DNA from: Saprospiraceae bacterium
GTDB lineage: Bacteria; Bacteroidota; Bacteroidia; Chitinophagales; Saprospiraceae
Direction: 5' to 3'
Assembly: GCA_021299835.1 (NCBI GenBank)
Contig: JAJTER010000011.1
Span: 1-44,077, forward strand
DNA: 44,077 nucleotides
In this document: piece by piece, positions 2,418-44,077 of the stretch
How the letters are laid out: every line of letters starts with the position of its first letter
Numbering within the stretch: the stretch's first letter is position 1
Translations under genes and position numbers: made by a program
Notes under the pieces: model-generated
What the model saw: the letters and a program-made list of their open reading frames with translations, nothing else
Told to the model about the DNA's origin: nothing
The model's database searches: none

Positions 2418-3372
2418 CTGATTTTTGTACAATATATTTACCATCCTTTTTTTCAGCTTTTAAGTTTAGCGGCCATAATATATTAAAAAGGGCAGATGCT
2501 ATGTTTTTATTGTCAAAAGAAGTGGTGATAACCCTATTTTCCTCTGATTCAGGCAAACGGACAACCGCATCATATTGTCTTGATAATTCCGCAAGAACCT
2601 CTTTCAATGAGGCATTTTGAAAATAGAACGATCCATTGCGCCATTTTAAACCCTCATTAAGAGCAGTTGGTTGAGCATCCTGCAATATTTCACCTGGAAG
2701 TTTTTCCGTTTTTTTTCCTTTGGTAAGATAAACAGCTTTAAATTGATCACTAACTTTCACCTTTCCAGTGTAGCAAAATACCAATAATTTTTCGTCTCTG
2801 CTTCGGACATTGAAGGTAGTACCCAGGACAGTTATGGTTCCTTCCGTTGTAACCACAGAAAACGTATTGCCTTTTGATACATTAAAATAGGCTTCACCCG
2901 TTAATTTTACTTTCCGATGGGTATTAAATCTATTCCCACTATAAACAACCTTTGAGCCGGCATTTAGCGTTACCTGAGAATTATCTGGTAGGGTTACCGT
3001 AGCTATTTCAGCATTATCTGTTTTAAAGGTTTCAATCTGGGGTAAAAGACCAATAACCAAAAAAATAAGGACAGCGGCAGCTGAAGCAGCGTATAAATAA
3101 ATGGATCTGAAAGGACGTATTCTTCCTTTTTCGGTGGTTGCCTTATCTACATTCTTCCAGATTCCATCGAGGTAAGTCTTTTCAATGGGTGAATCATTTG
3201 AGCTGAAATGCTCAATTAATTTCTTTGCGGCCGCAGTATCTTCCATAATTTCGGGATTTTGTCGTATTTTTTCTTCCCAATAATTGGCATCTTGCCAGGA
3301 ATTGTTTTTAACCCAGCGAATGAAAGATTCATCCTCTACAATCTCTTTAAATGAAGGTAATCGTTCTTCCAT
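2407..3372 (-). CDS. FecR-family anti-sigma factor (DUF4974 C-terminus)
   Basis: Inner-membrane regulator that should hold the ECF sigma factor encoded at 3908-4492 until the TonB receptor signals. The 321-residue protein has a cytoplasmic N-terminal part (about 1-90, including a Trp-rich stretch near 20-32), one membrane span (about 91-111, AASAAAVLIFLVIGLLP), a periplasmic FecR domain (about 118-215, with TLPDNSQVTLNAGS, GEAYFNVSKG and VLGTTFNV) and a C-terminal DUF4974-like STN-related domain (about 250-318, FQNASLKEVLAELSRQYDA). Length and order are standard for Bacteroidota FecR. The ATG at 3372 lies 3 bases after the stop of the upstream lipoprotein gene, and the 3' end overlaps the receptor start by 11 bases, so the three genes are almost certainly co-translated. 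Confidence 0.93.
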   Translation of the reverse strand: MEERLPSFKEIVEDESFIRWVKNNSWQDANYWEEKIRQNPEIMEDTAAAKKLIEHFSSNDSPIEKTYLDGIWKNVDKATTEKGRIRPFRSIYLYAASAAAVLIFLVIGLLPQIETFKTDNAEIATVTLPDNSQVTLNAGSKVVYSGNRFNTHRKVKLTGEAYFNVSKGNTFSVVTTEGTITVLGTTFNVRSRDEKLLVFCYTGKVKVSDQFKAVYLTKGKKTEKLPGEILQDAQPTALNEGLKWRNGSFYFQNASLKEVLAELSRQYDAVVRLPESEENRVITTSFDNKNIASALFNILWPLNLKAEKKDGKYIVQKSDVE

Positions 3373-3375
3373 AGC

Positions 3376-3837
3376 TTATTGTGAAAAAAGTTCATCTAAA
3401 TATTTACTTCTGTTTTGAGCATTGTAAACCATCTTACAACTCCCATTCCCACTTTGCATCATACTTGTACAGGTACCATCTTTATTTGTCGCATCCAAAT
3501 GTCGTCGATTCAATGCACAGTGTCCCAATTCATGAAAAATAACATATTCTTTTTCTGTCATAGTTGCAGTTTCCCAAAATAACCTGTCAATCATCAGGTG
3601 TTTTTCCCCTGATGTTAATTGATTGCATCGACCTAAGACGCCGTCGGTATCTATATCAATAATTTGCCCTATAATATCTTCCATATTTATGTTTTTGCCC
3701 CTTGAAGAACCTTCCTTTTTAAAAGATTCAAAGAAAAAAGTTAATCTTTCGTCCGCTTCAGGTGCAATCAAATTTTCTTCTTTCTGGCAAGAAAGAAATG
3801 AAATAAACAAGAATGGGAACAAATGAATTTTTTTCAT
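3376..3837 (-). CDS. Small lipoprotein with HExxH zincin motif, between sigma and anti-sigma genes
   Basis: A 153-residue predicted lipoprotein: Lys-Lys then a hydrophobic stretch ending in a lipobox FLSC with Cys17. Residues 102-113 read HELGHCALNRRH, an HExxH zinc-binding motif with a further His seven residues after the second His. About 12 residues later comes a TSMMQSG segment that could act as a metzincin-like Met-turn. The metzincin signature normally has its third His one residue earlier, so the match is to a zincin-like fold rather than a named family. Four Cys lie outside the lipobox (71, 107, 123, 134). It sits between the sigma gene (70 bases upstream) and fecR (3 bases downstream), which is not the usual FecI-FecR-receptor order. 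A proteolytic role in signalling is inference; it could instead process the ligand or be inactive. Confidence 0.75.
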   Translation of the reverse strand: MKKIHLFPFLFISFLSCQKEENLIAPEADERLTFFFESFKKEGSSRGKNINMEDIIGQIIDIDTDGVLGRCNQLTSGEKHLMIDRLFWETATMTEKEYVIFHELGHCALNRRHLDATNKDGTCTSMMQSGNGSCKMVYNAQNRSKYLDELFSQ

Positions 3838-3859
3838 TAAAATTATTTATACAGTTAAT

Positions 3860-30692: not shown

Positions 30693-31598
30693 ATGATTTC
30701 ATATAATGCTAAAGATTGGTTTACATTTATATTTAAAATACATAAAACAGAAACGATGCAACGCCTTCTCCCGTTGCTACTCGGCGTAGGTGTATATGCA
30801 GGTTCCTGGGCTTATATTGAAAATATTTTTTTTGCAGATAATAAAACCATTGGTTTATTTAATAATATTGGGATTGTTTATTCTATATTAGGATTTACGC
30901 TTTCCCTTTTTTTAGTATTCAGAACAAATACTGCTTATGACCGATGGTGGGAGGGAAGAAGATTGTGGGGCGATTTGACGAATGCCATTAAAAATATATC
31001 TATCCATTTACATAGTAGTTTACCTATTGAAAACGAGAGAAGAAGAGCTTATTATAGTGCTTTAATGCATCTTTTTTCTATTTCATTAAAGCAGCATTTA
31101 CAAGATAAAAGGTTGCACGCTAACCATTTTGAAATATTTGAAGAGAATAATCCCATTGTCGACGAAAAAAGTACCATACTTAGCTCAAATCACCAACCAC
31201 AGATTATAGTCAAACTGCTAATGCTTGCTTTAAAAGCAGATGTGCGACACGGTCTTTTTTCCATCAATGACCTGGAGCTGTATAGAATGGAAATAAATAA
31301 ATTTATGGATGTTTCCGGGGGGTGTGAACGTATAAAAAATACACCTATTCCTTTTACTTACAGTGTGTTCATCAAGAAATTCATATTTATGTATGTCATG
31401 CTTTTTCCTATTGTATATAGCACCCAACTATTCTTTTTTATCATTCCTGTGACCATGTTTATTCTCTATGTTCTGGCGTCCATAGAATTGATTGCAGAAG
31501 AAATTGAAAATCCGTTTAATGGCGACGAAAGTGATTTGCCCCTTGACGCCATTGTAAAAAACATAGGAAAAAGCACAAGAGAAATATTTTTTGGGTAG
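30693..31598 (+). CDS. Bestrophin-like (UPF0187 / YneE) chloride channel
   Basis: A 301-residue member of the bacterial bestrophin family, membrane channels that pass anions (some bacterial members pass cations). Recognised blocks are the first span YAGSWAYIENIFF, FTLSLFLVFRTNTAYDRWWEGRRLWG (about 72-97, the strongest family signature), a helical cytoplasmic middle, FTYSVFIKKFIFMYVMLFPI and the C-terminal EEIENPFNGDESDLPLD. Length fits the family. It ends 6 bases before the stop of the giant gene on the opposite strand. It probably has its own promoter at 30646. Confidence 0.9.
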   Translation: MISYNAKDWFTFIFKIHKTETMQRLLPLLLGVGVYAGSWAYIENIFFADNKTIGLFNNIGIVYSILGFTLSLFLVFRTNTAYDRWWEGRRLWGDLTNAIKNISIHLHSSLPIENERRRAYYSALMHLFSISLKQHLQDKRLHANHFEIFEENNPIVDEKSTILSSNHQPQIIVKLLMLALKADVRHGLFSINDLELYRMEINKFMDVSGGCERIKNTPIPFTYSVFIKKFIFMYVMLFPIVYSTQLFFFIIPVTMFILYVLASIELIAEEIENPFNGDESDLPLDAIVKNIGKSTREIFFG

Positions 31599-31604
31599 TT
31601 TTTA

Positions 31605-31900
31605 CTAACGCATTAAAGTAATTTCACCTTTTACAATTTTTGTATCGCCTTGAATCAATTTTACTTTGGCTGCAAAAACAAAAACAGCGGGATCAAGTAA
31701 CTTACCCAGATAAGTACCATCCCATCCCAATCCTTTTATTTTTGGATTAAATTCTTTTGCCTCAAAAACGAGGGTTCCCCATCGGTCAAAAATCCCCATC
31801 CATTCAATACTCTCGACCGATTTATCGGCATATATCTCAAAACGGTCGTTTATACCGTCACCATTTGGTGAGAAAGCGGTGGGCGCATAAATTCTTCCTC
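31605..31900 (-). other. T9SS type B sorting domain (gliding motility-associated C-terminal domain)
   Basis: The last ~98 residues of the giant protein: YAPTAFSPNGDGINDRF, then IFDRWGTLVFEAKEF, GWDGTYLGKLLDPAVFVF and a closing VKGEITLMR. This is the standard signature (F-S-P-N-G-D-G-x-N-D, RWG, WDG, G-x-x-x-L-x-R) of the type B C-terminal domain that targets proteins to the type IX secretion system in Bacteroidota. Confidence 0.93.
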
Positions 31901-34900
31901 TTTCATCGACATTGATAACTTGTATGTCAGATGATTGACAGCCATTTATGTCTGTAAGCGTCACTTTATAAGTGGTTGTTTTAAAGGGGAATACTTCGGG
32001 CGCTAAACAGTTTTTACAAACAAAAGGTATTCTGTCTGCTTCCCACTGAATATTTTTAATCCATTCATCAGGAATATTTTTTGTTACGGGTAATTCAATG
32101 GTATCTCCTAAAAAAATGGTTTGATCTGCACCAAGACTTATTTTTAAACCTTCAGGTGGAGATTTTATTAATAAGATGGTGTCTGTTTTACATCCTATAT
32201 CATCTGTGATGCTCAGGAAATGTTGGCCACCTTTTAGATTTTGAAAAATTAAATTTGAAGAATTTTTTCCGTCAAACGAAACAATATAGGGTGGGAAACC
32301 TCCTTTGATTTCTTTAATAGTAATAATTCCTGTAGTTGGATTATTACAAGCAGGCGCTTGAATTTGGGCAATTACATTTATTTTTTCACCCGTCGGAGGG
32401 AAAATTTGAACGGTATCTAAAGAAATGCAATCATTTGAATTATCCTTCACTTGAAGAACATAAATACCTTGCTTATTAATTTCCGGAGTCAGGGTATTGT
32501 TACCATTTACGATGCTTCCATTGTTGGTTTTCCAAAGTATGTCAGGGGAATAAGTCAATGCGAAAATTTCCCCCATTAGTTTAATATTTACATTGTCGCA
32601 AAGGAAATTAACATCTTGACCAGCACTTATTTTAGGATAAATAATCTTATCTATAATATTTGTAGTGTCAGTGGCAAAACATCCCGAATTTTTATCAGTC
32701 ACTACAAGGACGTATTTACCTGCCATTCTGGTTGATATCGTTGCGTTTGTTTTTACACCAGTAAATGTCAACGGGGTACTCCAAAGAAAAGAGAATTTAG
32801 AAGGATCAATATTTGATTTGATTTCAATGATTGAATCTTTGCAGGTTAGGGTGTTTTCATCGGGCAATTGAAAATCAGGTACGGATAATACGTTTAAATT
32901 TATGGTGTAATTAATTCTTGGACAAGGGGATGTCAATGATGGAAACTGATTAATTTCATATTTCCCAACGCCAAGATTTTCGGGTAAAATATTATTGAAA
33001 ATGGTATCAACCAAAGTGGAGTTTACCTTTTTAATTGTCCATATTTTATTTTCCTCTTTTTTATTTTCGAAAAGTAGGTGAAGTAATTTTTCCGAAGGAT
33101 CATTTTGACAAATAGTTAAGTCTTTGATATTATTTTCTAAACAAAAATTGGGATCTCTGATTATTTTAAACCGAATAATAGAATCGCATCCTGTAAAAGC
33201 CGCATTTTTTAAAATAAGCTGATAGGTGCCTGTATCTGTATATATTACATTTCTAAACTGGAAAACCTCATTAGGTTTAAGCAAGGTATCAAAATAAAAT
33301 AAGGCTTCGTTATAAACCAAAACTTCAATTATGGCGAGACTATCACAGCCATTTAAGGTAACTTTTGGAAAAACTTTTTCATAAATACCTGCCTTTTTAA
33401 TAGATAAGTCATTCCACCTTATTTCATCCCCAAAACACAACACTGCTTTTTCAATAATTTGCTTTTGAGGCTCTGTTTTGATGTCTAACAGGAGTAAGCT
33501 ATCGCAACCTTTTGAGGAACCGAGTGGAAAGAATTGACTATAATTACCAGATTCTGCATATTTTTTTCCATTAATTAATACAGTATCTCCCAGGCAGAAT
33601 ATTTTTTCAATGGTACCTGTATCAGGTTTATTTACCTCTAAAATTAAGGTCCATATCGAGTCGCATGCATTAACATTAGCTCTTCTTTCGATTTTGGTGT
33701 AAATCCCTGTTTCGTAAAACTTAAAATTAGAAATTTGAATGGTGTCACCTTCACAAATTGACCTTCGCAGGGTGTCTTTAGGCACAAAATAATTGTTTAA
33801 AGTCAGGACAATCAAGCTGTCACAGCCATTTTTTGAAAAGCCACTAAATCTTTTAATATAGGTTCCGGGGTTTTTTATAGACGTTTCAAAGAAAGGATAT
33901 TCATCGTTTGGACATATATATTTATCTAAATATAAAGTAGCGTCGTTTATTACTTTTACATTTAGTTCTACGATGGAATCACATCCTGAGGCACTTACTT
34001 TTTTTAATTGCTGAATATATTTTCCTTCCTTAAAATAGGATAAACCATTGTAAATTAGCGTGTCACCAAGGCAAATGGTGGTGTCTTTTATAGATTTATT
34101 TATCGTTGCCGCAGTGATTTTCACCTCAATGATAGAATCACATCCATTGGTCGCGGCATTGTCGAGGGTAATTTGGTAGATACCTGTAGCAGTAAATGTT
34201 TCACCCCATTTCCGTATAGTATCAGAGGGACATAAAGGAAGACTAATGCTGCTAAATTTAGCTTGAGACACACTAATTTTTAATTGAACCAGGGTATCGC
34301 AACCAATATTGTTTACTGCCGTATCTAAATAGGTATAATCTCCGGCCAGAGTAAAAGATTTTCCACCTCTTTGAATGGCGTCACCTTGACATATAATAAT
34401 TTTTTCTTCTTTAAGGGGTTGGGATGTAACTACCAAACTTAAATTTATAGTGGAATCACAGCCCACTGCATTTTTTTGTAATAAGGTTATGTTATAATTT
34501 CCTGAAGTCTTGTAGGTCTTATTTTCAAATGTCACTGAATCATTCCAGCAAATTTCTTTTTTCAAGGCTATAACGGATGGATTTAGTGCATTTAGATTTA
34601 AAGTAAGCAAACTATCGCATTGATTTGCTGCTGCTTTTGTGAATTTTTGCACGTAAGTACCTGGTGTAGTATAGTTAAATGCGTTGAGTGTATAGCTTTT
34701 TCCCTGACAAAAAGAAGCGGTTACCTTTCCCGACGCTATGGGATTGACGCTTAGGTTAATTTGAATGGTACTATCACAACCATTTGACTTTAAACCTTTT
34801 AAGTTTTGAAAATATATACCAGACGAGGTGAAAGTTTGATTATTTAGCAATAAAAAATCACCTTCACAAATGCTTCGTTGTAAATTTGCCGTATCACTTT

Positions 34901-37900
34901 TTTGCCAAACTAAATTAAAAGTTATAGTACTGTCACAACCCACCGCATTCTTCAATTTTATATTATACACCCCTGGGGCGGTATATACATTTCCCCATTG
35001 GGCATACCTTTCACCTGGGCAAAGCAAGGCATCGACTTTGCCGGTTGAAATATTATTTACGGTTAATTGTAGTTCGTTTAGACGACTACAACCAGCTTGA
35101 TTCAAGGAATTAAAACGATAGATCCCAGCATTTTTATAATATTGAGCACCAAAAAAGGTTGAATCGTTGTTGCATATCGCTTTTTTAGTTATCAAAGTGT
35201 CTTTTAAAGCGGGAAGGATGGTTAATTTAAGTATGCTATCGCATCCATTCCTATTTTTAACTGGATATTTGATAAGATAGGAACCAATATTTGTAAAAGC
35301 TTGATTTTGGACGGTTAGTATATCGCCGTTACATAAATACTCAGTTACTCTATTTGTATCTGACGGATAATAAGTTATGTTTATTTGGATGGTACTATCG
35401 CATCCTAAAGATGACGCTTTTGGTATTTTCTGAAAATAGCTGCCAGCTGTACGGTAAAATTGGTTGTTAATTTTCACTGAATCACCAAAACATATAAAAT
35501 TTTGCAGGGTACTTTTTGCTTCCGGAAAGTATTTTATGTCAATGATATAAAGGCTGTCACAAACCACATCGGAGGCAGAATTCACTCTTTCATAGTACGT
35601 TCCAGCTTTATCGTACGTTTTGCCTTTAAATTGGTATTTTTCCCCTAAACAAAGACTTACGTTTACTCTTTGTGTTAAATCTGGGTAGTTTTCTAATCTA
35701 ATGAGAATCAAAGAATCACAACCGCCTTCTGCCGCTTTCGGTAAAGTAATGGCATATACACTGGGTACAGAATAAGTCAAATTACGATAGGTAAACGTTC
35801 TATTCGGGCATATCTTTACAAAAATTTCTCTGGTAAGTGGCGGGGCAAGGAGTAGTTCCAGTTCTATAATACTATCGCATCCAGCCATATTTTGCCCTGA
35901 AAGAACCTGCTTATACTTTCCGGGAATATTTAATTCTCTGTCAAAAAATGAAAAAGATTTTCCAGGACAGATGTATTCTGTAAGGTAGGTGGTAGATATT
36001 TTTGCAATTTTTAAGGAAAGGTTTATTATCGAATCACATCCATTTTTCGCCCCATTTTTTACAATCTGGGTGTAATTGCCCTCTGAATTAAACGTTCTGC
36101 CACCTACCACGATGAAGGATCCTTCACAAATGGTTATATCAAGGTTTGAACGAGACAGAGGTTTGACTGTCAAATTTAATTCGACAAGACTATCACAACC
36201 CTGAGCAGTTTTTAATATCTGGGTAAAACTGCCTGAAGCCGAATAATTTGTGCCTCCAACCGTAAAGGATTCACCTTCACAAATTGTTGCTGTAATGGCT
36301 GACGATTTTTTTTGAAGAATATTTAAAATCAAGGTAGTAACACTGTCACAACCCTGTACTGATCCTCCTTTTAAAGTCTGAATGTAGGTACCCGATTGAT
36401 TTATATTTTTTCCATCAAAGAAATAGCTTTCGCCAAAGCACTTTGTTTGAGAAATCTGTGCCGTTTTTATTTTATTAACGGTAAAGTCCAAATTTAAAAT
36501 ACTGTCACAGCCTCTTCCTGAAGCCTTAGGTATTAGCCGTTGATATATACCGGTGGCATTAAACACTTCGCCATTCCAGGTATAAGTACCACCTTCACAA
36601 ACACTTAACGTACTATTTAATATTCCATTTGGAATGATTTTCAGATTAATTTCGAGTAAGCTATCGCAACCATTTCCTGCTTTTTTACTTAATATTTGAT
36701 TGTATGTCCCTTCAAGATTATAGGTCTGCCCGTTTTCAGTGAGCGAAGAACCGGTACAAATCTCTTTTACAATACTCCCTTTTTTTAACTCATTGACAAC
36801 TAAAGTTAGATTGATGGTACTATCGCAGCCGTTGGCGGCACCCCCTTTTAGTATTTTTGTGTAAGAACCGGCTTTATTAATATTGGAACCATTAAAATTA
36901 AAAAGTTGTCCTTCACAAATCGTCTCCGTTCTATTTTCTGATTTAGGTTGATTGACGTTTAATGTAAGATTTATCGTAGAATCGCAACCATTTTTAGCAC
37001 CTCCAGTTAGCTTAATTGTATAATTACCTGAACTTGTAAATGTTTGATTACCGGCTATATAGGATTCTCCAGTACAAATGGTTTGACTTATAGTAGCAGT
37101 ACTATTTGGTTTAACTGTAAGATTTAATTTTACTAAACTATCGCAACCTCCTGCGGCGGCACCAGGAAAATTTTCTTCATATGAACCAGTGGTGGTATAA
37201 TCCTTTCCGTTTAAAGTATATTTCTGACCTGCACAGATGGTTTCACTAATATTTTTAACAACCTGAGAGTTAATATTTAAGCTCAGATTAATAGTACTGT
37301 CACATCCTCCAACTGTTGCACCAACTAGTGTTTCAGTGTAATTACCTGCGGCGGTCAAGGTTCTGCCAAAAAATGAGTAGGAGGTATTGGGACAAATATT
37401 AGCTGAAATATTGGTTACAAAAGATTGTAAAATCTGAATGCTTAGACTTACTACGCTGTCACATCCATTGCTGGCTCCATTTTTAATAATTTCTGTAAAT
37501 TGTCCGGCAGTTGAATAGGTTTTACCATTTATAGTGTAAGATTTTCCTGTACAAAGATTTATTTGTTGGGAGGAAGTTGCTTTGGGAAGAAAATCGATAG
37601 CCTTTGACAACGTTTGCGAACAGCCTTTAAGGTCTTTTATCTGAACGGTATAATTTCCTGCATTAGCCTCTGTCGTTGTTGGTATTTTCACTGCGGCTCC
37701 ATTACCTGTAAAACCATTGGGACCGCTCCAGGTATAGGTGTCACCACCAGTTGCGTTGAGAGCCAGTTCATTGCCGACACAAAGGGGTAAATTGGCAGTT
37801 AAGGTGCCTTTGATAGAAAAAATAGTAAATTTTTGTGTCTTAATCACCCCATTGCCACAAGGGTCTTTATATTCCCAGGTTCTGGTTATAACCTCAGGCT

Positions 37901-40900
37901 CTGATTTTCCGTCAGAAAAATCAATGCCTGGAATACTCCCCGTACCATTACAATTGTCTGTCCAGGTCAATGTATTCATTGGAGGAATGGCTTCTTTGCA
38001 ATTTAAAGTCTGGTCAGCTCCTGGTTCCGAAAGGGTAGGCAGAACATTATCCTCAATTTTAATTGTTTGCTTATGTGTAATATCGTTGCCACAGCCATCT
38101 GTTGCGTCCCAGGTCCTGATTAGCTGGTAATTATTAGTGCAGGTTCCAGGCACTTTAACCTCAGTATATTTAACTGGTACTGTTAAACTACAGTTATCAG
38201 TAGCCGTTAAAATGTTAGGTATACTAACTTCCGAGCAAGCGGCTATAGTGTCAGAAGGGGTGTAGTTCCATTTAGGCGCTACTTTATCGATTACGGATAT
38301 TTTCTGTATTATATTACTTGTATTTCCACAAACATCGGTCGCTGTCCAGGTTTTTTCAAGGGTATAATTCTGGGGACAAGAACCAATGGTTTTATTTTCA
38401 GATTTAATGATATTAACTACACCACTGCAATTATCTGTAGCTATTGGTATAAAATCAACCACAGGGTCAGTGCATGATAAGTTTAGGTCAACGGGGGTAT
38501 TGGTAAATACAGGTTTTTCGATGTCTTGAACAGTAATCGTTTGTGTTTTCTCTGTTTTATTTCCACATTTATCCAGGCTAGTCCATTTTCTTAACAGGAC
38601 ATAATTATTGACGCAACTCCCCAAAACTTTTGTTTCTAAAAAAGTTAAGGAAGGATTATTGTCACAATTATCCGTAGCTGTCAGCGTTACGATAGGTGGA
38701 ATATTAATACAGTTAACAGTAACATCATTTGGAACGCCTATTATTACAGGAGCGATTAAATCGTTTACCGTTATGGTTTGTTCGTACGTTTTGCTGTTAT
38801 TACATTTATCGGTGGCGATCCATTTTCTTATGATTTTATAATTTCCGAGACATCCCACATCAGTGGTTTCAGAAAACACGAGGGTTGGACTAATATCACA
38901 GTTATCACTGATTTGTGGATTAGTTACAGGTGGTACCAGGTCACAGTTCACGGTAACGGAGCTGGGTGGATTTATAAAAGTGGGCGCTTCGGTATCTTGA
39001 AGGGTGATTTTCTGCATTTTTTCGTTAATATTACCACAGGCGTCAATAGCCTTCCATGTTCTGGTAATGACACCATTATTCGGGCAAGTTCCGGGTGAAA
39101 TGGCTTCTGTAAATGTTAATAGGGGAGTCAAATCGCACAGATCTGATACCGTAACAGTTGGATTTGTTGGAATGGCGTTGCAACTTGCGGTGACGTCACT
39201 GGGAACCCCATTTATTGTGGGCGCTTCGGTATCGGTAACCTCTATGGTCTGAGAAGCGATTTGAGTATTTTTGCAGGCATCTTCAGCGGTCCATGTTCTT
39301 ATTAAATTGTAATTTCCGGGGCAAGAACCAGCTATTTTTTCCTCTTTAAAGGTTAAAGTTGGCGTGGCATCGCAAATATCCAACACTACGGGGTTTATCA
39401 CCGTTGGAACATTGGGACAACTTACCTTCACGTTCGCAGGTACCCCTGAAAATACGGGAGCTGTGACGTCCTGAACTTGAATAATTTGCTTAACTATAGT
39501 CGCATTACCACATTTATCAGTAGCCGTCCATTTTCTTTCCAGTTGATAATTTTGTGGGCAAGAGCCAGATATTTTGGTTTCAAGAAAGGTAACGATGGGA
39601 TTAAGATCGCAATTATCAGTGGCTTTAGGATCTATTTTTAAGGGAATTTGATCACAATTAACTACTATATCAGTGGGAATATTTGAAAATGAGGGGGCGA
39701 CATCATCTTTAAGGGATATTTTTTGAATGTTTTTAGTCGTATTACCGCATGCATCTTTTACTTCCCAGGTTCTGGTAATGATTTCCGTAAATGGGCAAAT
39801 TCCAGCGACTTTTGTTTCTAAAAATTGAATGGGAGGTAGGCTAGCGCTACAATTGTCTGTTGCTGTAACAGTAGGAAGGGCCGGTATTTCGCCACAATTA
39901 ATAATGGCATCATTGGGAATGCCTGAAAAAACAGGAGAAATATTATCAATAACGGTAATCGTTTGTTTTCCGATATCCGTGTTGTTACATGCGTCTTTAA
40001 TGGTCCAGGTTCTTTGTATTTTGTAATTTCCAACACACAGAGGGTCAATTACTTCACTAAATTGAATTGTAGGCGCGGCATCACATAAATCTATTCCCTG
40101 GAGGACGGGAGCGACTGGGATTTGATTACAATTTACAGAAATATCAACAGGTAAATTTATAAAGGAAGGCTTTACTTCATCTTTAATCGTTATGTTCTGT
40201 GTTTTAATGAGGGTGTTACCACATTGGTCTTTGGCAATCCAGGTTCGCTGGATAAGATAGGATTGAGGGCAACTGCCGGGTATTTGTATTTCACTGAAAG
40301 TTAATGTTGGGTTTGGGTCACAAAGATCGGAAATGGTGGGGTTAGTCACTGGAGGGATTAAATTACAGGTACTACTCAGATCGGCAGGGAAATTAGAAAA
40401 AACGGGAGGTACATTGTCAATTACATTTATTTGTTGAGCAGCTGAAACTGAATTTCCACATTGGTCTGTTGCCTTCCATATTCTGAAAATAACATAATTA
40501 CCAGCGCAGGTTCCTGCTACTATAGAATCTTTCTGTGTAACAGTTGGCGACATATCACAGTTATCGGTAGCCGTTATCACAGGGACGGCAGGTATGGCAT
40601 TACAAGATACCTGGACGCTTGCTGGTACACCAACTAACTGCGGGCCAATTTCATCCTTTACCTGAATAATCTGTTTATGGCTATTTTTATTACCACAGAT
40701 ATCTTGAATTTCCCAGGTTCTTTCAATGGTGAAATTTTGAGGGCAACTTCCAGGTATAGTTACTGTTGAAAATGTGATGGTCGGACTTGGGTCACAATTA
40801 TCTGAATAGGCGGGGGTCCAGCTTGGGGGTGTGCTGTTGCAAGGAATAACCAGATTTGCAGGAGGATTAATAAATTGTGGAGGCGTATTATCCACAACGG

Positions 40901-43245
40901 TAATGATTTGCACGGCCTCTCTCTCATTTCCACACACGTCTTTCGCTTTCCATTTTCTGGTGATGGTATAATTTCCCATACAGGCAATCCCCTTTTCCTC
41001 CGAAAAAGTAATGACAGGATTTAGGTCACAATTATCAGTGGCGGTAGGATTTGTAACCATTGGAATGGCATTACAGTTAACGGTTACATTTGGTGGCACA
41101 CCAACAAATTGAGGGGCTAAAGGGTCTGTAACAGTTATTGTTTGGACGAAATTGGTAGTATTTAAGCATAAATCAACGGCAGTCCAGGTTCTGCTAATAG
41201 TATAAAAGCCAGCACAACCTGGATTTTTTACGTCTGCATAGGTTATTTTTGGATTTGGATCACAGTTGTCTGTGGCAGTGGCTGTTGGATTTTGTGGAAC
41301 GTTATCACAACTCAACGATAAGGTTGACGGTAGATTTATAAATTGAGGAGGAGTATTATCTGAAAAATTTATCCTTTGAATGTATTCGTCATCATTTCCA
41401 CAGGCATCTGTAGCTAACCAAGACCTTTTTACTTGAAAACTACCTAAACAAAACCCTTTGATGGTATCTATGGTTAAGGTAAGTGTGGGCGCTACATCGC
41501 AATTATCCTTAATAGACATTACAGGTAGGGGAGGACTGTCACTGCAACTAACACTTAAATCACCTGGATTATTAAGAAAAACTGGACTAATTTCATCTTT
41601 AACCACAATTTTTTGTGTGATGGTCGTCTCATTTTGACAGGCATCTTTTACTTTCCATGTTCTGATTAAGCTAAAATTATTGGGACAGATACCCGGAATG
41701 GTATCTTCTTTAATGACCACATTTGGATTTAAATCGCAATTATCTGAAACATTCAAGGAAATCAAATTTGGCAGATTTTCACAAGAGACGGTGAGATCTG
41801 CCGGGGAATTAGCTATAACGGGAGCCTCAGTGTCGGAAACATTTATTTCCTGAATATGAATGGCAGTGTTGCCACATGAATCAGTGGCAGTCCAGGTTCT
41901 TTTTAAAATATAATTGCTTGGGCAAGACCCATTGATTTTTTGCTGCGCATATTGAACCTGTACATTTATAGTACAATTATCTGTTGCGGTTAAAACGGGT
42001 GCTGCGGGTATGTTACTACATGCGGTGCTTATGGAATTAGGTAAATTATTAAATACTGGCTTTTCATTGTCAATTACCGTTATTAGCTGGGTTAAGGTTT
42101 GTTGGTTATTACATACGTCTGTTGCCTTCCATGTTCTGGTAATGGTGTAACTGCCTGAACACCCGGTACTTTTTGTTTCCTGAAAAGTAATGACAGGATT
42201 TGAGTCACATAAATCAGATGCTGTTACGACAGGAATAGAAGGAATAGCATTACAATTTACGGACACATTGGAAGGAACGCCTGTCATTACAGGTGCCTTT
42301 ATGTCAACTACCTGGATAGTTTGTGTCTTTGTAAAGGTATTATTACATGCATCGGTTAGTAACCAGGTTCTATTTATAGTGTATTTTCCCGCACAAGTTC
42401 CCGGGGTTTTTGTTTCTGTAAAGCTTATGATTACACTCGAACAATTGTCTGTGAATGTGGGCGTTGCAGCTACTGGAATACTGTGGCACTCAACAACAAC
42501 ATCTGCGGGGAAATTTATGAAACTGGGTTTTTCCTTATCTGAAACATTGATTTTTTGAATATGCGTCCTCTCGTTTTGACATGCATCCTTTGTTACCCAG
42601 GTATTTTGGATGGTATATTCATTAGGGCAAGAACCTGGTAATTGAACTGAGGTAAAGGTTAAGGATGGATTCATATCGCAACTATCACTGACCGTTAGGA
42701 CAGCATTGGCGGGGATATTAGTACATGAGACATTTATGTCAGCAGGAAGAGAACTAAAAGTTGGGGCTGTAAGGTCTTTTACGGTTATGGTTTGAACATA
42801 AGTGGATTGATTATCACATTCATCTCTCGCAGTCCATGTTCTTTTAATGGTTTTATTATTAGCGCAATTACCTGGAATGGTCTCTTCTAAATAAGTGATA
42901 CTAATATTATTAGAAGCACTGCAATTGTCAGTAAAGGTTGGGTCCTGTTTTAATGGTATGTTTCCGCAACTTACTGTGACATTAGGCGGTGTGTTGGTAA
43001 TTACGGGAGCTTGTGTATCAACTATTTGAATGGTTTGTGTCCTTACATTGGTATTTCCGCATTTATCTTTTAAGGTCCAGGTATATCTAACCGTTTTTTG
43101 ATTTACACAAGTACCATTTATAATTTCTGATAGAAAAGTTAAGACGGGATTTGCATCGCAATTATCATTAAAGGTGGGTGTTATTGGGGCTGGAATGGTT
43201 GGACATTGTGCGGTATAATTACCTGGAAAAGTTAAAAACTGCGGT
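31605..43245 (-). CDS. Giant T9SS type B surface protein with HYR-like and GCDS repeats (main part)
   Basis: About 3,880 codons of one reading frame. Order from N to C: HYR-like repeats (43245-37805), an Ig-like module (SGPNGFTGNG...NYTVQIKDLKGC, near 37600-37800), GCDS repeats (37575-33150), Ig/PKD-like segments (KYVLVVTDKNSGCF, YVLQVKDNSNDC), an SprB-like repeat (PACNNPTTGIITIKEIKGGF) and the type B sorting domain (RGRIYAPTAFSPNGDGINDRFEIY ... VKGEITLMR, 31605 to about 31900). This domain sends proteins through the type IX system to the cell surface, so an adhesin or matrix role is likely (inference). The first in-frame start codon is the ATG at 42674, but the open frame continues upstream with two more repeats, without any ATG, GTG or TTG and without a stop, up to a frameshift near 43245. 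The true start is beyond the window. Confidence 0.88.
33150..37575 (-). repeat. About 28 protein repeats of ~52 residues ('GCDS' repeats)
   Basis: Each unit has C.G.(S/T)(Y/F)...(G/N)(K/R).(Y/F)...G.Y......A..NGCDSxxxLxLxV. I counted 28 GCDS-like cores from ASNGCDSVVSL to AFTGCDSIIRF; variants are GCSR, VVCDS and GCDT. Two Cys per unit suggest one disulfide each. The DNA is diverged between copies, so these are old protein repeats rather than recent duplications. Confidence 0.85.
37805..43244 (-). repeat. About 23 protein repeats of ~79 residues (HYR-like)
   Basis: Unit pattern: PxFxxxPxDxxVxCxxIPxxPxxTxxDNCDxxPxxTFxExxxxGxCxxNYxxxRTWxAxDxCGNxxxxxQxIxVxDxxAP. I counted 21 units from the repeat containing 42674 onward plus two before it. 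They resemble hyalin (HYR) repeats of immunoglobulin fold with four conserved Cys. Copies differ in about half their residues. Confidence 0.85.
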
Positions 43246-44077
43246 TGCCGTGGTGTCTTTTAAGGTGATTAGTTGCTTACAAATGGCTGAATTACCACAA
43301 TTGTCAAAAATTTCATAATTTCTTTCAAGTAGTCCGTTACAATCTGTTCCTGTTTGAGTTTCTGAAAGTAAAGTTATATTAGTATTCAAATAAGGGCATG
43401 GGAAATTTATGGCTCCTCCCCCTGCTATGAAAGCGGTGATGGTTGAAAATGGGGGGTATAAGGCGGAACTACATTTAATCACATTGGGTGGACAAATGGT
43501 ACATTCTTTAACTGTCAACCTGAAAATATCAATAAACTTACAGCCAAATCCATTGGTAGCGGTAACAGTGTAGGTTTGATTTCCACTATTTATTAATTTG
43601 TAATTTCCTCCTCCCAATGAAGTTATTCCAGTATTGGGAGAAAAAGTATAAGTAAAATTGGTGGATAAACTGAAGGTTAAGGAGTCATTTTTACAACCTT
43701 CTTTATCATCTATGGAAAAAGTGGGAATGGGCTGATGGGTTACCGGAAATTCAAAGGTTTGGAAACTACAAGGATCATTCTGGTCAGTAACTCTAACCGT
43801 GTAATTAGTGGTTTGACCATTTGCAGGTGGAACAAAAGTACTGGAGGTTCCAAGGACGAATGACGGATTATTGCTATTGTACCAGGCAATGTTATAACCA
43901 CTCCCCGGGCCTGTTATATTTACGGTCAGGGTTTTTTCTGCATTGGTACTGTTTTGACAAAACACTTTGCTAAGTGGCGTAACATTAATAGTAGGTTTAG
44001 GTAAGGTGGTGACAGTTACTTCGCGCGATGATGTTAAGGTAGTTCCACAGGTGCTAATATTACTGGACCAGGTTGCG
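43219..44077 (-). CDS. Upstream part of the giant surface protein, partial and frameshifted
   Basis: About 286 codons, open to the right edge of the window (ATWSSNISTCGTTLTSS at the very end), so the start lies outside. It holds Ig/PKD-like segments (NYTVRVTDQNDPCSFQTFEF, QTYTVTATNGFGCKFIDIF) and a degenerate HYR-like unit (DCNGLLERNYEIFDNCGNSAICKQLITLKDTTA). It then meets a stop at 43219-43221 after AVFNFSR. In the next frame the same DNA reads PQFLTFPGNYTAQCPTIPAP, exactly the expected repeat start after DTTA, so one extra base near 43245 splits a single gene. This is either a true mutation or a sequencing/assembly error. With the signal peptide upstream and the sorting domain downstream, a real frameshift would block secretion of the repeat region. 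Confidence 0.8.
   Translation of the reverse strand, partial: ATWSSNISTCGTTLTSSREVTVTTLPKPTINVTPLSKVFCQNSTNAEKTLTVNITGPGSGYNIAWYNSNNPSFVLGTSSTFVPPANGQTTNYTVRVTDQNDPCSFQTFEFPVTHQPIPTFSIDDKEGCKNDSLTFSLSTNFTYTFSPNTGITSLGGGNYKLINSGNQTYTVTATNGFGCKFIDIFRLTVKECTICPPNVIKCSSALYPPFSTITAFIAGGGAINFPCPYLNTNITLLSETQTGTDCNGLLERNYEIFDNCGNSAICKQLITLKDTTATAVFNFSR

Follow-up and report, generated by a model that had tools for sequence, protein, structure and literature searches.

In the passages of Antonov et al. 2013 (PMC3711429) that are relied on here, unclustered frame breaks of non-orphan genes are regarded as likely indel mutations or sequencing errors. The same passages name seven A-rich heptamers and give the prfB-type +1 programmed frameshift as CTT_TGA_C with an upstream Shine-Dalgarno, and homopolymers of about 7-9 bases are the slippage and phase-variation lengths used there and in the corresponding part of PMC1088944. 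Literature searches returned no report joining programmed frameshifting to Bacteroidetes adhesins, no report on the HYR domain in Saprospiraceae, and no report linking CHU_C, type IX secretion and HYR. The locus compared with these systems is a giant repeat-protein gene of a Saprospiraceae bacterium in which the reading frame is broken. With a probability of roughly 0.93, the break is read here as an indel of one base net, not programmed, that interrupts one giant gene for a type IX-secreted surface protein where two repeats meet. Selection has kept the gene intact in other respects, and the indel would be either a slip of assembly or consensus close to the end of the contig or a loss-of-function mutation that arose very recently, possibly at the level of strains.

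The window, that is, the whole stretch of DNA analysed (44,077 nucleotides), is the whole of contig C71 from an assembly of 205 contigs and 4,043,840 bases. On the minus strand the upstream frame enters at the contig end (44077), runs for 285 codons and ends ...ITLKDTTATAVFNFSR-stop, the stop being TAA at 43221-43219. A second minus-strand frame, offset by one base, gives PQFLTFPGNYTAQC... from 43244 on and continues for 3,879 residues to a stop at 31607-31605. This downstream frame is free of stops from 43259 to 31608 (3,884 codons), and its preceding in-frame stop lies at 43262-43260; the frame change must therefore fall within 43259-43222, where the two long frames overlap by 38 nt only. 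The first ATG, GTG or TTG of the downstream frame was found at 42674, 190 codons after 43244, and the mechanical ORF call for this part is 31605-42674 (3,689 residues). Over 12.5 kb, the other two frames of the minus strand hold 328 and 405 stops, the 405 belonging to the frame whose first 285 codons are open. The downstream open frame is far beyond chance: at 328 stops per 4,158 codons, even a 195-codon open stretch would arise by chance with a probability of roughly 1e-7. Both sides of the break look like coding sequence by coding score. Frames, stops and the missing start were thus recomputed, and the frame break was borne out at the coordinates given for it in an earlier note on this DNA. 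The parts of the gene are collected in table 1.

Table 1. Parts of the giant gene and of its frame break (window positions).
Feature	Position	Strand	Remarks
Upstream part of giant gene	43219..44077	-	Open at contig end; Ig_7 domain; HYR-like repeat last
Ig_7 (CHU_C-associated Ig-like) domain, upstream part	43732..43956	-	
Stretch open in both frames, 38 nt	43222..43259	-	Frame change must lie inside
Best-supported frame-change place, D...P boundary between two repeats	43244..43248	-	Profile score 27.2
HYR-repeat coding, 190 codons without any ATG/GTG/TTG	42675..43244	-	
Downstream open frame, 3,884 codons + stop	31605..43259	-	
HYR_4C repeat array	37824..43226	-	DNA search: 19 places (E <= 0.001); motif: 22 boundaries
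53-residue repeat array	33165..37604	-	27 copies of a CDS/CDT motif
C-terminal type IX secretion sorting domain (CHU_C / Bac_Flav_CTERM, type B)	31608..31886	-	

The C-terminal domain scored above the curated cut-offs of both PF13585 (42.5 bits, cut-off 27) and TIGR04131 (46.7 bits, cut-off 35), as in T9SS type B sorting-domain proteins, and by itself suggests that the organism belongs to the Bacteroidota. The N-terminal end, where an export signal would be expected, falls beyond 44077, where the contig ends. The downstream part belongs to HYR_4C (PF23237), with 275.2 bits over its length, above the cut-off, and nine of the 19 places pass the cut-off singly. Judged by the names of its domains, the product would be a secreted, surface-anchored repeat protein, probably with the role of an adhesin. 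In the whole genome, all 19 HYR_4C matches at E <= 0.001 lie within this gene. In the 53-residue array, 24 of the 26 spacings between CDS/CDT motifs are exactly 53 residues (the others being 51 and 102), and a second cysteine was seen by eye about 30 residues upstream in nearly every repeat. Searches of this array gave only two PKD matches in Pfam (E up to 5) and one match in NCBIfam, all below their cut-offs, and nothing was found among PDB sequences with phmmer (E up to 0.1).

Register across the break was assessed using 22 repeat boundaries taken from the first 1,800 downstream residues and anchored on the upstream side only. All 22 have proline at the expected place and the following cysteine at a constant distance. 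Thirteen candidate frame-change places were scored against the profile of these boundaries, and the top score (27.2) was obtained with the frame changing directly after 43248-43246, the next places scoring 21.7 and 20.9. The 22 boundaries, which are themselves part of the profile, score 25.5-45.6, a range that includes 27.2; the upstream frame alone (17 positions, stop included) scores -1.1. The break sits within one repeat boundary, with the spacing kept. The earlier note had proposed a single gene interrupted by a net shift of one base, and this holds; the shift place it had named agrees with the profile optimum, although the exact base, after 43248-43246, is likely and not proven.

Relatives were sought by searching the upstream part in 199 genomes of the family, own included, of which 132 matched at E <= 0.001, and the nine best-matching other genomes (G125, G019, G075, G137, G007, G213, G088, G100 and G066) were examined. 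The alignment takes in most of the upstream part in eight of them and its last 151 residues in G066; all nine are distant, with only about 26-37% protein identity. In each of them the boundary lies inside one continuing open frame, the D...P spacing is kept (six by the script's pattern, three by eye), and the shift is present in none. Other searches for the site were made at the DNA and peptide level: a peptide-pattern scan of genome contigs for the upstream protein matched 27 times, none of these being confirmed as a relative, a gapped DNA pattern spanning the site had no match at the site in other genomes, and plasmids searched for the same site gave no match. A DNA search of 40 relatives (own included) had matches in four; besides the own genome, these were three short stretches of 65-86 bases. 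The upstream protein matched in three of all seven genus genomes, the own and, weakly, G004 and G005.

Among the congeners (genus set of seven genomes, own included), an ortholog of the C-terminal 631 residues was found in G002 only, at 93% identity; in the other five the best match is a different protein, at 29-31%. The G002 copy (contig C99) is 94.3% identical to downstream residues 394-3879 over 3,486 residues, with no gaps. This copy starts with its own contig, about 1.2 kb downstream of the site, and nothing in G002 matches the upstream part, so that the site is covered by no close relative. Over the 3,486 codons compared, dS is 0.257, dN 0.028 and dN/dS 0.11, and dN/dS ranges from 0.07 to 0.19 in seven blocks of up to 500 codons; these ratios show purifying selection on this part of the gene. 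Along the gene (window 31608-42065 against L069, the G002 contig), dS ranges between 0.15 and 0.41 in blocks of about 500 codons, suggesting that blocks may have recombined. Given a dN/dS of 0.11, a lack of further stops over 11.6 kb and an indel-free comparison with G002 in the part compared, any real break must be recent; even if all amino-acid changes had followed it on this lineage, it would occupy at most about 22% of the window branch.

An assembly or consensus error has a little better than an even chance of being the cause of the indel; the gene of the living organism would then be unbroken, and the lesion would stem from low coverage or a mixture of strains close to the contig end. 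The break lies 832 bases from the contig end, and the terminal 1.4 kb of the contig has no second match in the assembly. An error also agrees with the lack of any other stop or indel over 11.6 kb, with the purifying selection on the comparable part and with the unbroken frames of all nine examined relatives. The proximity of the end is, however, weak evidence of a bad consensus, since contig ends near such repeat genes are common and in eight of the nine relatives, too, no more than 1.6 kb separates the match from a contig end (G075 is the exception). The same placing is seen for G000:C71, the window's own contig, and at the contig start for the G002 ortholog.

The quality of the consensus itself also speaks against an error. 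The best place lies outside any long homopolymer, and 45 of 48 homopolymer tracts (A/T of at least 7, G/C of at least 6) lie wholly within long window ORFs that run on through them, seven of the 45 being in the giant gene, and this is not the picture expected from a platform prone to homopolymer errors. Startless breaks were counted in 60 stretches of the assembly, window included (812,870 of 4,043,840 bases; 620 coding segments, 724,131 coding bases), and five frame pairs without a start codon near the junction were found. Three of these (L070, L077 and L110), with a start 19-30 codons in, were read by us as ordinary neighbours; the remaining two are rmuC (L121) and the giant gene of the window. 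The count is a lower bound, as eight more pairs that overlap by at least 100 nt have start codons and were left out. Such rarity of startless breaks in the sampled assembly indicates a good consensus. The broken rmuC lies at 2599-3848 (plus strand) of L121 (G000:C42), its halves in different frames; one half matches PF02646 positions 1-49, its 18.8 bits falling short of the cut-off of 26, and the other matches positions 78-290 with 229.3 bits, about 28 profile positions being missing between them.

A genuine recent indel, which would make this copy of a dispensable surface-protein gene a null or strain-level allele, is a serious candidate but falls somewhat short of an even chance. It is favoured by the small number of startless breaks elsewhere in the sample and by rmuC, which is likewise broken and lacks part of its profile. 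As five of six congeners best-match a different protein (29-31%), the gene may be dispensable. The low dN/dS and the lack of a second lesion stand against this, as does the small share of the branch that the break could occupy. Between the two, we infer a slight lean to assembly error over recent mutation, at odds of about 55 to 40.

Very improbable, by comparison, is programmed or tolerated +1 frameshifting, ribosomal or transcriptional, by which the full protein would be made. In its favour, the frame change brings back a repeat boundary with perfect spacing, and coding scores are obtained on both sides, but the signals tested for are lacking. Ten shift-prone motifs, a selection of known ones that included homopolymer heptamers and prfB-type words, were sought in 43300-43200 and none was found. 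The longest A and T runs in the same interval are A4 and T5, which bears out the earlier note in placing the site outside any long homopolymer, and none of the seven A-rich heptamers named in the cited passages of PMC3711429 therefore fits. The fold of 43140-43243, as a candidate stimulatory RNA structure, gave a z of -0.60, with 58 of 200 shuffles folding at least as well, and Rfam gave no match at gathering thresholds. Near the best place, none of the codons ACG, GCA and ACC (ranking 44th, 22nd and 17th in use) is one of the rarest, whereas CCG, read in the second frame, is, at 4.8 per 1000. Recoding is disfavoured because the nine examined relatives, distant as they are (about 26-37% identity), read through in one frame and no tested shift-prone signal is present, and the break offers no evidence for it. 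Still less probable is a real break at which an unrecognised shift-prone motif would allow, through a +1 shift, low stochastic production of the full-length surface protein.

Two candidate mechanisms were tried and set aside in their own right. For transcriptional slippage or homopolymer phase variation, the runs are only A4 and T5, and no tandem repeat was found in 31000-44077. For a prfB-type +1 shift, the motif is absent, no stop codon stands at the shift place, and the examined relatives do not share the shift.

Two separate adjoining genes, for which only the stop codon and the missing start speak, are scarcely credible, given 190 codons of repeat-coding sequence without a start, one repeat boundary split exactly and single frames at this place in the examined relatives, and the earlier view that the downstream part, with no start before 42674, is not a normal separate gene stands.

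The non-programmed indel bears mainly on annotation. A mechanical caller gives a separate 285-residue fragment and a 3,689-residue ORF from 42674, and with this split call the repeat count and the N-terminal side of the giant protein would be misread. Were the break real, translation would stop short of the sorting domain, eight codons beyond the site, and the product would lack surface anchoring.

Compared with the described systems, the window site resembles the prfB-type shift in that both have a net +1 change of frame, but differs from it in having neither the motif nor a stop at the shift place and in the lack of any shift in the examined relatives. Giant HYR-repeat proteins of the same family, probably type IX-secreted (type B sorting domain, TIGR04131 / CHU_C), carry the region in long single frames, whereas the window copy is split; in the G075 relative the region from Ig-like to HYR lies in a single open frame of 3,904 codons, against a window copy split at one boundary. 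With nine relatives examined, the frame break has the character of a singleton indel or sequencing error, and no differences were found from the singleton frame breaks dealt with in the cited passages of PMC3711429, which it resembles in that no examined relative shares the shift and both halves match one kind of protein.
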